Assembly: GCF_017483025.1 (NCBI RefSeq)
Contig: NZ_JAFUMA010000066.1
Coordinates: 62,001-126,000, forward strand
Direction: 5' to 3'
Length of the DNA stretch: 64,000 bases
From: Anaerotignum sp.
GTDB taxonomy: Bacteria; Bacillota; Clostridia; Lachnospirales; Anaerotignaceae
Each line of letters opens with the position of its first letter. Positions within the stretch are counted from its first letter, which is position 1. A program made the translations under genes and the position numbers. Below the pieces are notes generated by a model, which was given only the letters and a program-made list of their open reading frames with translations, had not been told where the DNA came from and made no database searches. Positions 28,647-62,162 of this stretch are shown here, in pieces.

Positions 28647-28675
28647 TTGACTTCTCAAACTACACATGATATGCT
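28647..28675 (+). promoter_or_regulatory. Promoter of the H-cluster-like gene
   Basis: TTGACT and TATGCT separated by 17 bp. The 70-nt leader that follows has two small hairpins, AAAGTTA/TAACTTT at 28687-28707 and CTAT..ATAG ahead of the ribosome site. Confidence 0.5.
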
Positions 28676-28747
28676 TTTTCATACAAAGTTAGCGTATGTT
28701 AACTTTCTTGACTATGCCCTTTGGCGATAGCCAGAAAGGAAGTTTAT

Positions 28748-29371
28748 ATGAAATATATATGGATCAACCCAGTTACGGAAAGCATGTACACACCAGCCGC
28801 GTTATCTGCCTTTTTACAGAAAAACGGCTATACGGCAGTTACTGTTTCCACCAACTGGATCAATATTGTAAAAGAAAAATATAAAGCTGCCGTAGCAGAT
28901 TCTTCTCTTCCCGTGATGGATATGCGCTGTCCGAAAATTCTCGAACTGGTAAAAGAAAGCGGCATCTCCTCCGCTGTCACGATACCCGAAATCGAACCCA
29001 TCCTCATCCATTGTGGGCGGGAAATCAGCCAGAGAGAAGACCTTCGCGGCACAGAAAAAATCATCACCACCCCTTGCAAAGCTCTGGCGGATATGGGCAA
29101 CGCCCTTGCCCTGCCGGAAACGACATTCCTGCCCTGGAATGAATTTCTGCGCATCACAGGCAGCGAACCGGCTGCCACTTCCTTAGAGAAAAGTCCTATT
29201 CCTCCCGGCTTTTTTGAAGGACTAGGCTTCTCTCACCACTCCGTCACAGGGGAAACAGAGATTCGGGAACTCTTTCAAAGCGAGGAATTGCATCACACCG
29301 ACCTAGTCGAGCTGCTCTTCTGCAAAGATGGCTGCCATAACGGCGACGGTGTGAAAATATCTGCAAATTGA
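28748..29371 (+). CDS. Small protein with the [FeFe]-hydrogenase H-cluster cysteine pattern
   Basis: A 207-residue soluble protein resembling a stripped-down [FeFe]-hydrogenase large-subunit domain. Compared from memory with HydA, the four H-cluster cysteines have counterparts: Cys61 in MRCPKI (HydA CCPGW), Cys110 in TTPCKA (HydA MPCTSKK), and Cys192 and Cys196 in FCKDGCHNGDG (HydA CHGGCVNGGG). The ferredoxin-like and SLBB domains and most of the active-site shell are absent, and the TSCCP motif is reduced to one cysteine. It may hold a simple Fe-S cluster and act as sensor or cofactor protein; hydrogenase activity is unlikely. It has its own promoter and GAAAGGAAG ribosome site (start 28748). 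The ABC operon follows after an attenuator. Confidence 0.6.
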   Translation: MKYIWINPVTESMYTPAALSAFLQKNGYTAVTVSTNWINIVKEKYKAAVADSSLPVMDMRCPKILELVKESGISSAVTIPEIEPILIHCGREISQREDLRGTEKIITTPCKALADMGNALALPETTFLPWNEFLRITGSEPAATSLEKSPIPPGFFEGLGFSHHSVTGETEIRELFQSEELHHTDLVELLFCKDGCHNGDGVKISAN

Positions 29372-29434
29372 ACCAAAACATATCAGTTTTACCCTCTTTT
29401 CTTTTTGCAACAAGCATGTTATACTGACAAAAAA

Positions 29435-29549
29435 CGTGCTAACCGCAAAGGGTAACACCTGAGCAAAAAGGCGTTCAGACAAGCATGATGAAACCCAGGG
29501 ACAACTGCACCCTTTTCAGAGTCTGCGCTTTTTCGCGCGGACTCTTTTT
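29435..29549 (+). promoter_or_regulatory. Unidentified structured leader RNA ending in an intrinsic terminator
   Basis: A -10 element TATACT at 29420-29425 would start a transcript near 29432. AAAGGGT (29447-29453) pairs with ACCCTTT (29509-29515), closing a domain that holds the stem CTGAGC/GTTCAG (29459-29464/29473-29478) and an unpaired GATGAAACCC segment. A strong terminator, AGAGTCTGCGC/GCGCGGACTCT (29518-29545) followed by TTTTTA, stands directly before the permease gene. CAGAC at 29476-29480 could pair with GTCTG of the terminator. It fits no riboswitch class I know. Confidence 0.55.
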
Positions 29550-29573
29550 ATATACAGAAAAAGGTGAATTTAC

Positions 29574-30341
29574 ATGAAAAAAACACTCTCGGCCCTTGCG
29601 CCTTTTATCGGCATCATCGCCGTATTCGCCGCATGGTTCATCATTTGCCGATTGGGCATATTCAGTACATATGTATTGCCGACACCGGAAAAGGTTTTTG
29701 ATAGTTTTCTGAAAATGCTGGTCTCCGGTGAAATTTTCGAAGATGTCATCATCTCTCTGGTCCGCATCCTGAAAGGCTTTTCCATCGCCTTTCTGCTGGC
29801 CTTTGTTCTGGGGATGTTCCGTTCTCTGGTGCCCGCTTCGGAAAAATATTATGACTATATCGTTCAGTTTTTCCGCAACGTGCCCCCGCTGAGCCTGATC
29901 CCCCTGCTCATCCTCTGGTGCGGCATTGGGGAAACTACAAAAACTGTCATCATCGTACTGGCGTCCTTCTTCCCCATGTATCTGAACATTGTAAAAGGCT
30001 TTACCGGCTGCGACAAGAAGCTGCTGGAAGTGGGCGATGCCTTCGGCTATACAAAATTCGAGAAATTCAAACACATCATCCTGCCCTACGCTTCCGCTGA
30101 TATTCTGGTCGGTATGCGTATCGGCATGGGCTACAGCTGGCGCGCCATCATCGGCGCAGAAATGATCGCCGCATCCAGCGGTATCGGCCACATGATCCTC
30201 TTTGCTCAGGAAATGAGCCGTACGGATAAAGTCATTGTGGGTATTTTCGTAGTCGGCATCGTCGGCCTGGTGACAGATAAAATTTTTGGTATCCTGTTGA
30301 GAAAACTATTTAAAGGGAATGGTGAAAATGGCTGGAATTGA
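29574..30341 (+). CDS. ABC transporter permease, NitT/TauT (SsuC/ThiX) type
   Basis: A 255-residue permease with about six membrane helices. The cytoplasmic EAA loop reads [20 protein letters not shown], and the C-terminal [23 protein letters not shown]-type sequence is the family signature. It moves an organic anion or heterocycle with the ATPase and binding protein encoded next. The gene starts after AAAGGTG just beyond the terminator of the leader RNA and overlaps the ATPase gene. Confidence 0.9.
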
Positions 30342-31038
30342 GTTGAAAAATATACAGAAAACCTATCCCGTGGACGACCATACCATCCATGTTTTGAAGG
30401 GTATCAACTTACAGATCCCCGAAAAAAGCATCACGGTCATCCTGGGTCGCAGCGGCTGCGGGAAAACCACTCTGCTTCGTCTGGTGGGCGATCTGGAATC
30501 TCCCGATTCCGGCGAAATCAATTTCGATGTCGCCCATAAAACGGCCTTTGTCTTTCAGGAATCCCGTCTGATGCCCTGGCTGAATGTTTGGGACAACGTA
30601 AAATTCGGGTTGAAAAAACAGCCCTGCGATGATACGGCTATCCAATCCATCATCGACACTGTTGGCCTGAGCGGCTTCGAAAAAGCCTATCCCAATCAGC
30701 TTTCCGGCGGCATGCAGCAGCGCGTTGCCATCGCCCGGGCCTTGGCGTATGATCCATCCTTCATTATGATGGACGAGCCCTTCGCCGCTTTGGATTACTT
30801 CACCCGCGACCAGATGCAGAAGGAATTGATCCGCCTGCAGAAAAGCCGCGGTGCCAGCATCCTTTTCGTGACCCACAGCATCGACGAGGCCCTGCTTCTG
30901 GGGCATAAGATCGTGGTCATCGAAGACGGGCAGATCAAAAAGGAATTCCTCATCGAAACAGAAAGCGATGAAAGAGATCTGCTGGCAGATGCATTTATCC
31001 AGCTGAAAAGGGAAATTATAGAACAGTTGGATTTATAA
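30328..31038 (+). CDS. ABC transporter ATPase, NitT/TauT type
   Basis: A 236-residue ATPase: Walker [15 protein letters not shown] loop [11 protein letters not shown], signature [15 protein letters not shown], Walker [13 protein letters not shown] and the switch histidine in [10 protein letters not shown]. The PWLNVWDNV and THSIDEA forms match the SsuB/TauB/ThiZ group. The ATG at 30328 follows GGTGA and overlaps the permease stop by 14 bases; an ATG nine bases earlier abuts AAAGGGA. Confidence 0.92.
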
Positions 31039-31047
31039 TGAGGTTTC

Positions 31048-31063
31048 GCTGCCAAAGGGCAGC
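31048..31063 (+). promoter_or_regulatory. Intercistronic hairpin before the binding-protein gene
   Basis: GCTGCC/GGCAGC around AAAG, with no T-tract. It may stabilise the 3' or 5' end of processed mRNA, a common device to raise binding-protein output. Confidence 0.4.
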
Positions 31064-31120
31064 ATTACCATATAAAAGAGAAAAATAAAAGAGAAAAGAA
31101 ACTTATTTTAGGAGGTCAAC

Positions 31121-32071
31121 ATGAAAAAGAGATTTATTGGTATGGCAATGGCAGCCCTGATGGCTGCAACAGCACTGACAGGCTGCGGCGGCGGTTCCGC
31201 AGAAGAATCCCTGGATAAGCTGACATTCACTTATGTAACATCCCCCCTGAACGTGCCTTCCATCATTGAAAAGGAAAAAGGCATCTTCGCAAGCACATTT
31301 GAAGATATGGGCATTTCCGTAGAATATGCGGAACTGACATCCGGCGCAGACCAGACACAGGCACTGGCTTCCGGCGATGTACAGGTGCTGTATGCCGTAG
31401 GCGCAACATCCGTTATCCTTTCCGCAGCAAATGATGCAGATATCAAAGTTCTGAATATGTACAGCCGCTCTCCCAAGGCTTTCTGCATGTATACACAGGA
31501 TGAAAGCATCACTTCCCCCGAAGACCTGCGCGGCAAAACAATTGCAGGTCCCACAGGCACAAACCTGCATGAATTGCTGGTTTCCTATCTGGCAACAGCA
31601 GATATGACAATTGACGATGTAAACTATGTAAATATGTCCATCCCCGAAGCAAAAGCAGCACTGGACGGCGGCAGCCTGGATGTGGCTCTGGTGGCTGGCG
31701 CAACAGCATATCAGGCAAAACAGCAGGGTTACCACCTGATCGCAGATGGTGAAGGTCTGATCGACGCCATCATCGCAGTGGCAGTAACAGATGAATTCTA
31801 CAATGCGCATCCTGAAATCATCGAAAAACTGAAAGAAGCACAGGATGAAATCGCTTCCTTCATCAGCGAAAACGAAGCAGAAGCACTGGCGATCGTTGCT
31901 GCGGCTCTCGACCTTGATGAAGCAGCAGTGGCCGAAATGTACGAATACTATGATTTCTCCACAGAACTGACAGAAGCAGACAAAGCAGGTTTCCAGAACA
32001 CAGCAGATTTCATGTTCGAATCCGGCATGATCGAAAATGAACTGGATGTAAATACTCTGTTCTATGAATAA
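31121..32071 (+). CDS. ABC transporter substrate-binding lipoprotein, NMT1/SsuA type
   Basis: A 316-residue lipoprotein. The signal peptide ends in the lipobox LTGC and a GGGSAEES linker. The mature part has the NMT1/SsuA fold pattern: PSIIEKEKGIF, ALASGDVQVLYAVG, SPEDLRGKTIAGPTGTNLHELLVSYL and PEAKAALDGGSLDVAL. The ligand is unknown; relatives bind sulfonates, thiamine precursors and nitrate-like or other small molecules. It has the strongest ribosome site of the operon (AGGAGGT). Confidence 0.92.
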   Translation: MKKRFIGMAMAALMAATALTGCGGGSAEESLDKLTFTYVTSPLNVPSIIEKEKGIFASTFEDMGISVEYAELTSGADQTQALASGDVQVLYAVGATSVILSAANDADIKVLNMYSRSPKAFCMYTQDESITSPEDLRGKTIAGPTGTNLHELLVSYLATADMTIDDVNYVNMSIPEAKAALDGGSLDVALVAGATAYQAKQQGYHLIADGEGLIDAIIAVAVTDEFYNAHPEIIEKLKEAQDEIASFISENEAEALAIVAAALDLDEAAVAEMYEYYDFSTELTEADKAGFQNTADFMFESGMIENELDVNTLFYE

Positions 32072-32624
32072 TCAAACAATGGACGCAAAAAATATGGTGA
32101 CTGTCCGCAAGAACGGCCCCCTCCTCTCCTTTACCTATGAGGAGCTTCTCGCCCATCATGGCGGCGCCATGCCCGGCGGGGTCGCCCTTGCCTTTCGTAT
32201 GCTGCAGTGGGTCTTCACAGACGTCCTGAAGACCATCCCCGAAAGAGGACAGTGCAGCTTCTACAGCGGCCTTGGCGAAAATGGCCGTGGTATCATCGAC
32301 ACCGTTACGAAAGTCCTTGGCGTCGTGGAAAACGATTCCCTGCGGTTGGATAAAGCCTACAGCCTGGATAAAACAGGCCCTATGGCTCCTGGCGGCGGCA
32401 GATATTATTTCGAATGTGGCACAAAGGATAAGCTGGTAAAGCTGGCGGTGAAAGACGGCGCCATCCCCGAAGAATTTTTCCGCTGCTCCGCAGAAATGCA
32501 TAGAAAACGCCAGAGCGGCGAACCCATCACCCAGGCAGAAACAGACCACCTGCAGCAACTGCGCATAGAGCTGAGCAAAGCCATCCTTGCGGCAGACAGC
32601 AGCGATCTGTTCGTACTTTTATAA
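32064..32624 (+). CDS. FmdE-like protein lacking the conserved cysteine motif
   Basis: A 186-residue soluble protein that looks like a divergent FmdE/GlnB-unrelated formylmethanofuran dehydrogenase subunit E domain. The family motif FHGHxCPG reads AHHGGAMPGG at residues 30-39 and is followed by VALAFRMLQ, so the metal-binding cysteine is lost. CSFYSGLGENGRGIIDTVTKVLG fits the next conserved block (DAIQxxTG). Some cysteines remain (CSF, ECGTK, FRCSAE). The ATG overlaps the binding-protein stop by eight bases with no clear ribosome site; ATGs at 32079 and 32094 are alternatives. It belongs to the ABC operon. The function is unknown; handling of the imported compound is an inference. Confidence 0.6.
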   Translation: MNNQTMDAKNMVTVRKNGPLLSFTYEELLAHHGGAMPGGVALAFRMLQWVFTDVLKTIPERGQCSFYSGLGENGRGIIDTVTKVLGVVENDSLRLDKAYSLDKTGPMAPGGGRYYFECGTKDKLVKLAVKDGAIPEEFFRCSAEMHRKRQSGEPITQAETDHLQQLRIELSKAILAADSSDLFVLL

Positions 32625-32655
32625 ACATCCTATAGAAACTACTCCTCACAAAAAG

Positions 32656-32695
32656 AAAGCGAGAAAATGGACATCCATCTTCTCGCTTTTCTTTA
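32656..32695. terminator. Bidirectional terminator between the ABC operon and the CDF gene
   Basis: AAAGCGAGAA pairs with TTCTCGCTTT, followed by TTCTTTATT on the plus strand and by A-rich sequence on the other side. Confidence 0.8.
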
Positions 32696-33880: not shown

Positions 33881-33922
33881 AAAAAAGCATCTGCAGGAAC
33901 ATATAAACTGTCCCGCAGATGC
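33881..33922 (-). terminator. Expression-platform terminator of the NiCo riboswitch
   Basis: On the minus strand GCATCTGC GGGAC pairs with GTTCC TGCAGATGC and TTTTTT follows. It shares the last conserved aptamer strand, so metal binding should prevent its formation and switch the exporter on. Confidence 0.8.
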
Positions 33923-33979
33923 CTTTCATCCGCTGCAATAAATGCCCGGCCACACGGTTTCCCGCTGCCTGCTCAGTTT
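33905..33979 (-). promoter_or_regulatory. NiCo riboswitch (czcD motif)
   Basis: The minus-strand RNA carries in order the conserved blocks ACTGAGCAGGCA, GCCGGGCA, GCAGC and GGGACAGTT. These are the signature of the NiCo aptamer, which binds Ni2+ and Co2+ cooperatively and often controls CDF exporters. ACTG and CAGT close the structure. Confidence 0.85.
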
Positions 33980-34025
33980 GTACTGTATGAGTGGTTGGTT
34001 CAATGCAGTGCAAAATATTCCTATG

Positions 34026-53415: not shown

Positions 53416-53478
53416 AAAAAAACCGTAATGGCTTTGCTATATTCCTTCTGAAAAAGGCTTATAGCAAAACTATTACGG
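53416..53478 (-). terminator. Expression-platform terminator of the purine riboswitch
   Basis: CCGTAAT and TTTTGCTATA pair with TATAGCAAA and ATTACGG around a loop, then TTTTTTT on the minus strand. The 5' arm is aptamer sequence (P3 and the 3' side of P1), so a bound ligand blocks the terminator. Confidence 0.85.
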
Positions 53479-53520
53479 TAGTTTGTAGACACATTCATCC
53501 AATCATGAATTTATATAAGC
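53457..53520 (-). promoter_or_regulatory. Purine riboswitch aptamer, guanine type
   Basis: The minus-strand RNA fits the three-way purine aptamer: P1 GCTTAT/ATAAGC, P2 ATTCAT/ATGAAT, junction GTGTCTAC in place of TTTCTAC, P3 AACTA/TAGTT, then TTGCT where the discriminating base is C (position 74 of xpt numbering), which selects guanine-like ligands. Position 51 is U, so the 2'-deoxyguanosine class is less likely. Confidence 0.88.
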
Positions 53521-53561
53521 ATTTATAAAATTGTACAGTCATCGGAACTATACAATGAGAT

Positions 53562-61930: not shown

Positions 61931-61933
61931 TAT

Positions 61934-61962
61934 TTGACAAAATCTGCCCGGAGAGATATGAT
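61934..61962 (+). promoter_or_regulatory. Promoter of the cobalamin-riboswitch operon
   Basis: TTGACA and TATGAT separated by 17 bp, directly after the preceding terminator. Confidence 0.7.
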
Positions 61963-61970
61963 AAAGAAAC

Positions 61971-62115
61971 CATAGATACGGACAGGAATCCGGTGCGAAT
62001 CCGGAACAGTTTTATCCCTGCTGTGTGAGCAACGAAAAAAGTCATATACCACTGGAGGCTTCTCTGGGAAGGGACTTTGAGTAGGCTTTTGGCTCGAGTC
62101 AGAATACGCGTCCGG
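61971..62115 (+). promoter_or_regulatory. Cobalamin riboswitch
   Basis: Conserved blocks occur in order: GAATCCGGTGCGAATCCGGA, CCCTGCTGTG near GTGAGC, ACCACTGG and CTGGGAAGG, then CGAGTCAGAATACG. GGAC/GTCC closes the structure. These are the P3, J6/3 (GCCACTG box, here CCACTGG) and 3' core of B12 riboswitches. Confidence 0.88.
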
Positions 62116-62162
62116 AAAAATATCTAAACAACCAAAGGCATAAATTGGGGGTTTCTTTTTGT

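Follow-up and report, generated by a model that had tools for sequence, protein, structure and literature searches.

The window analysed here is a 64,000-nucleotide stretch of DNA from Anaerotignum sp. (GCF_017483025.1, contig NZ_JAFUMA010000066.1, positions 62,001–126,000 of the forward strand). We studied a locus at window positions 28647–32695, in which a promoter-like site, a palindrome, a gene for a small protein related to [FeFe]-hydrogenases (designated mini), a leader RNA, an ATP-binding cassette (ABC) importer and an FmdE-like gene follow one another on a single strand. The four parts described in the initial annotation (mini, leader, transporter and FmdE-like protein) were all present, in the order given there. 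Iron-linked regulation of this operon is well supported. The features of the locus are:

28647–28675, + strand: promoter-like site TTGACT-17-TATGCT with an extended –10 element (9 of 12 positions match), placed consistently with the operator and the gene start
28687–28704, + strand: iron-box-like operator AGTTAGCGTATGTTAACT, an 18-bp palindrome of the AGTTAG-N6-CTAACT type with one mismatch
28748–29371, + strand: mini H-domain protein of 207 amino acids with four invariant Cys residues (ATG at 28748, stop codon ending at 29371)
29417–29425, + strand: extended –10 element of the leader, TG-T-TATACT, as read from an alignment
29432–29553, + strand: leader RNA, in no Rfam family, its 5' end placed from the –10 element
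29518–29545, + strand: intrinsic terminator of the leader, with an 11-bp stem
29574–30341, + strand: ABC permease (BPD_transp_1, SsuC/SaoP/TauC-like)
30319–31038, + strand: ABC importer ATPase
31121–32071, + strand: lipoprotein substrate-binding protein (NMT1/SsuA-like)
32064–32624, + strand: FmdE-fold protein without the FmdE metal-ligand motif, an optional operon member
32656–32689, no strand assigned: terminator hairpin between the fmdE-like gene and a convergent cation-efflux gene, common to both

The number of promoter-type matches in the region was not above that in shuffled sequences.

The mini protein of the window matched PF02906, the HydA H-domain family, below threshold (E=0.022); among 62 mini homologues, 45 matched this family, the best with E=7e-12. 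An AlphaFold (AF2) model (62 homologues) had a predicted local distance difference test score (pLDDT) of 91.7, and all 50 PDB matches listed for it were [FeFe]-hydrogenases (probability 0.99–1.00, query TM 0.61–0.69). The root-mean-square deviations from these structures were 6–9 Å across long gapped alignments, and the mini is therefore a remodelled H-domain. Judged by its modelled fold, it is a shortened version of the [FeFe]-hydrogenase H-domain (CpI 4XDC, DdH 1HFE, 8A6T), with the same order of cubane Cys residues and the same CxxxC spacing. However, it is approximately 60 residues shorter between loops 2 and 3 (C110–C192, compared to C133–C277 in A7) and, at 207 residues, has none of the accessory iron-sulfur (Fe-S) domains of HydA. 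Exactly four Cys residues were invariant across the 62 sequences, C61, C110, C192 and C196, found in RCP, TPC and CxxxC contexts and corresponding to the cubane ligands in loops L1, L2 and L3 of the H-domain; the L1 and L2 correspondence was set by motif order, since hhalign against 11 HydA domains recovered the last cysteine loop alone (66.6%). The four hydrogenase Cys positions noted in the initial annotation were thus borne out, and the protein has in addition a fifth Cys, C89, whose conservation is not universal. Most likely, the mini carries one [4Fe-4S] cluster on the four invariant residues.

In HydA, an extra Cys in L1 serves proton transfer and a Lys in L2 contacts cyanide. At the level of motifs, the mini has R60, directly before C61, at the position of the proton-channel Cys, and L113 (C110+3) where HydA has the Lys. 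Because both residues are replaced, the mini appears unlikely to be an active hydrogenase or to hold an active H-cluster. A sensor role for it, suggested in the initial annotation, drew no support from our results. Such a regulatory function, in which the mini would sense H2 or redox state for the importer, might be read from the H-domain fold and from a TM1266-like hydrogenase-regulator gene that adjoins the system in two congeners (G006 and G008); however, the protein has no DNA-binding or signalling domain and has not retained those residues by which HydA holds its diiron site, and we regard this function as barely probable.

We scanned for the operon in one genome per species and found 68 loci, distributed in Bacillota, Treponema and other spirochaetes, Campylobacter, one fusobacterium, a deltaproteobacterium and a Calditrichales genome. 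The adjacency of mini and importer, which the initial annotation had put forward for checking, was conserved, with the permease gene following mini in 62 of 65 loci. Pairwise distances of mini correlated with those of the permease, ATPase and binding protein (r=0.87–0.88, 58 loci), a value to which operon inheritance and species history both contribute. Of 69 loci, 16 contained the FmdE-like gene, in almost every case immediately 3' of the binding-protein gene. It is an optional member of the operon, and we rejected it as a core component, as which the initial annotation had treated it, since most loci lack it. Clustering of neighbouring genes revealed no other partner that both recurs and has an evident meaning.

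Iron-type boxes were counted in the 150-bp upstream regions of 67 mini operons, with 698 upstream regions of other genes as controls. A Fur box (no more than 4 of 19 mismatches) was present in 13 of the 67 regions, compared to a mean of 0.1 in shuffled sequences and 3 of the 698 controls. A second palindrome, AGTTAG-N6-CTAACT (no more than 2 mismatches), occurred upstream of 32 operons (shuffle mean 0.6; 10 of 698 controls). Altogether, 45 of 67 operons had one of the two boxes and no locus had both; this association is new here. The operon in the window has a box of the AGTTAG-N6-CTAACT type and no Fur box. Exact copies of the same palindrome were also found in five genomes (G787, G786, G790, G000 and G004) near feoA-feoB and genes for an FecCD permease, Dps, flavodoxin/DUF3793 and Rrf2, and one copy precedes a Fur-family gene by approximately 0.9 kb. 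At the feoA-feoB, FecCD, Dps and flavodoxin/DUF3793 genes the box is on the upstream side. AGTTAG-N6-CTAACT looks like an iron-regulon box.

Expression data for an orthologous operon have already been published. In Clostridioides difficile, CD630_29890-29920 (ssuA2, ssuB2, ssuC2 and an 'iron hydrogenase-like' gene) was induced at low iron (log2 2.6–3.5 for RNA) and in a fur mutant (log2 4.4–6.1 for RNA; 5.8 for the mini protein) (PMC6311696). That study gives the hydrogenase-like protein no role. We matched our C. difficile-type loci to this operon by gene order and by a published 40-base ssuA2 segment (PMC7438776), which was found with 39 of 40 identical bases in locus L085. The operon has the same gene order as that of the window; however, it lacks the FmdE-like gene, and between mini and the permease gene there is no room for such a leader RNA. 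The C. difficile-type locus contains a Fur-box match (15 of 19 positions) 36 bases before mini. The operon is probably switched on by iron shortage. The metal-related role proposed in the initial annotation gained support from both the boxes and these induction data.

The two forms of iron box, the importer and a cytosolic, probable Fe-S protein together suggest uptake of an iron compound with reductive release. Drawing on the fold, the invariant Cys residues, operon conservation, the iron-type boxes and the published induction in C. difficile, we tentatively favour an iron-starvation import operon in which the H-domain-derived protein would receive or reduce the imported iron compound, although we hold this with somewhat less than even confidence. 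Under iron limitation, the promoter would be freed of an iron-dependent repressor; this would be Fur in some lineages and, in the lineage of the window, a regulator that recognizes the AGTTAG-N6-CTAACT box. The lipoprotein would then capture a small iron-bearing compound, which the permease and ATPase would import. In the cytosol, the mini, most likely with its one [4Fe-4S] cluster, may receive this compound and reduce or dismantle it to yield usable iron, and the FmdE-fold protein, where present, may be an accessory in the same step.

Several observations weigh against iron import. Neither box was found at 22 of 67 operons; these include every locus of Campylobacter and Lactococcus and the majority of those of Treponema. 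We first spotted the palindrome consensus in the same upstream regions in which it was later counted, so that the feo- and FecCD-type neighbours of its other copies provide the independent support. In addition, the C. difficile study reported no Fur box at CD630_29890-29920 and read the operon as a sulfonate uptake system (PMC6311696). Four genomes (G002, G004, G006 and G616) have the importer without an adjoining mini gene. In G616, a binding protein with 67–74% identity occurs, together with its permease and ATPase, without mini or an iron box, and these genes adjoin others resembling a sulfate ABC importer. The main doubt concerns the substrate, given this genome and the similarity of the binding protein to SsuA and TauA. 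The transporter is of the NitT/TauT type (SsuABC-like), as initially annotated, with permease, ATPase and NMT1-type binding protein all present; the binding protein most resembles those for aliphatic sulfonates, taurine and nitrate, and its closest solved structures are SsuA and TauA.

The operon might accordingly import an organosulfur compound of the sulfonate type as a sulfur source, with iron co-regulation explained by Fe-S supply and the mini acting as an Fe-S enzyme on the import. The closest solved binding proteins, the surroundings of the G616 importer and the published interpretation of the C. difficile operon would all agree with this. However, sulfur alone gives no account of orthologous operons that have two different iron-type boxes across lineages. 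The neighbour clustering brought out no recurring sulfur genes, the operon contains no known desulfonation enzyme, and the curated NCBIfam cut-offs for SsuC and the SsuA family were not reached (179 of 347 and 152 of 163.5 bits, respectively). Sulfonate import seems rather unlikely to us, if a serious alternative. The results neither confirm nor refute the sulfur/nitrogen compound offered in the initial annotation. The NMT1 family name of the binding protein also brings to mind an iron-free, iron-sparing compound, such as a thiamine pyrimidine precursor, and one locus (L018/L041, a single contig) is located 0.25 kb downstream of a trio of genes resembling thiM-thiE-thiD. This arrangement was seen in one lineage only, the window has no thiamine pyrophosphate riboswitch, and the H-domain and FmdE-like proteins would be left without a role; import of such a compound is highly unlikely.

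The relationship of the mini to hydrogenases raises a further explanation, in which an organometallic precursor of the H-cluster (e.g., an Fe-CO-CN synthon or a diiron subcluster) is salvaged from other microbes and carried by the mini to HydE, HydF or HydA. If true, this would amount to an importer and a carrier devoted to precursors of the hydrogenase cofactor, allowing maturation of HydA without the cell's own cofactor synthesis. There is a real but modest link to hydrogenase maturation. In L052 and L059, mini is immediately preceded by hydE-hydF, and in the congeners G006 and G008 these two genes are divergent from the importer or mini; this makes three lineages, where approximately 0.1 would be expected by chance according to our own, not computed, estimate. 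Moreover, six system-bearing genomes (L113 in G793, G800–G802, G812 and G815) had strong HydA matches and no HydE, HydF or HydG above cut-off. These belong to Lactococcus reticulitermitis, whose HydA motifs read as intact, three Erysipelotrichaceae, one Fusobacteriaceae and one Oscillospiraceae; several are metagenome-assembled genomes (MAGs). The window genome and four congeners also had no HydG above cut-off. However, in a background of 216 genomes of the order of the window genome (at least 95% complete), HydA (TIGR02512 cut-off) was found in 152, HydG in 104 and HydA without a HydG match in 63, and the nine genomes here that have the system were split into five without and four with HydG. 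Because HydA without HydG is common, we dropped the absence of HydG as an argument, and with it the idea that the importer replaces HydG. Besides, Campylobacter has the operon and no PF02906 match, the mini lacks the Lys that contacts cyanide, and a search of the literature revealed no importer of H-cluster precursors. Precursor salvage is thus quite improbable. As a separate observation, HydE of the window genome (L146, 6381–7435) has 251 residues compared to approximately 350 in congeners, possibly due to a frameshift or an assembly error.

The FmdE-like protein of the window did not reach the curated cut-off of PF02663 (E=0.2, 12.2 of 22.9 bits), and the best of the 16 FmdE-like members had E=0.001. 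A profile search against PDB sequences gave chance matches only, and a fold comparison was therefore needed. For the AF2 model (pLDDT 93.9), the FmdE-like protein 2GLZ was the one PDB entry that matched significantly (Foldseek probability 1.00, TMt 0.69), which indicates the same fold. The metal ligands in 2GLZ are His15, His17, Cys19 and Cys55 (PMC2954224). This His-x-His-x-Cys...Cys site is gone from the whole subfamily, in which a near-invariant H32 stays and no Cys is conserved. The description 'cysteine-less FmdE-like' was therefore right about the fold; the window protein does contain Cys residues (C64, C118 and C143), and it is the family metal-ligand motif that is missing. Genes resembling larE-larC come after the fmdE-like gene in Peptoniphilus (L058, 13682–15768), and a cobW-family gene does so in a Lachnospiraceae MAG (L052, 13685–14626).

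No Rfam family reached its gathering score in the leader RNA, and relaxed thresholds gave chance matches only, so a known riboswitch was rejected. The fold of 29430–29553 had z=–4.2, which dropped to –2.0 without the terminator (29430–29519); therefore, the terminator gives much of the folding signal. The consensus fold showed little covariation (2 pairs, with a slightly unfavourable covariation term), and structure beyond the terminator is therefore not established. Of the structured leader with a terminator initially annotated, the leader and terminator hold. Among 58 genomes of the family, it was detected in the window genome and four congeners, with one strong match per genome, and it stays upstream of the permease gene even where mini is missing; the TATACT of its –10 element is kept in 5 congeners. 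The leader is genus-specific and hence not a core part of the system, as which it had been presented. Known Rfam riboswitches elsewhere in the window are NiCo (33906–33986, – strand), before the cation-efflux gene, cobalamin (61932–62130, + strand) and purine (53442–53538, – strand).

In the light of our results, what is widespread as a 'sulfonate transporter plus hypothetical protein' becomes an iron-regulated unit. The results also place the hydrogenase fold in a new setting beside an importer, supply an iron-box consensus for Lachnospirales-type genomes and point to a candidate system by which gut anaerobes, C. difficile among them, may acquire iron (or an iron cofactor). Among known systems, the Sao importer (SaoP/SaoA/SaoX, NCBIfam) has homologous NitT/TauT-type subunits; however, all three subunits of the window fall far under the Sao cut-offs. 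With respect to the proposed iron import, an importer combined with an Fe-S reductase is known from FhuF (PMC8068687). FhuBCD and FhuF offer a functional analogy, being an iron-regulated importer and a cytosolic Fe-S reductase of ferric siderophores. In contrast, the folds are unrelated, FhuF contains a [2Fe-2S] cluster and the ABC importer class is different, and the reductive step in the operon described here would be the counterpart, on a remodelled H-domain, of that carried out by FhuF.

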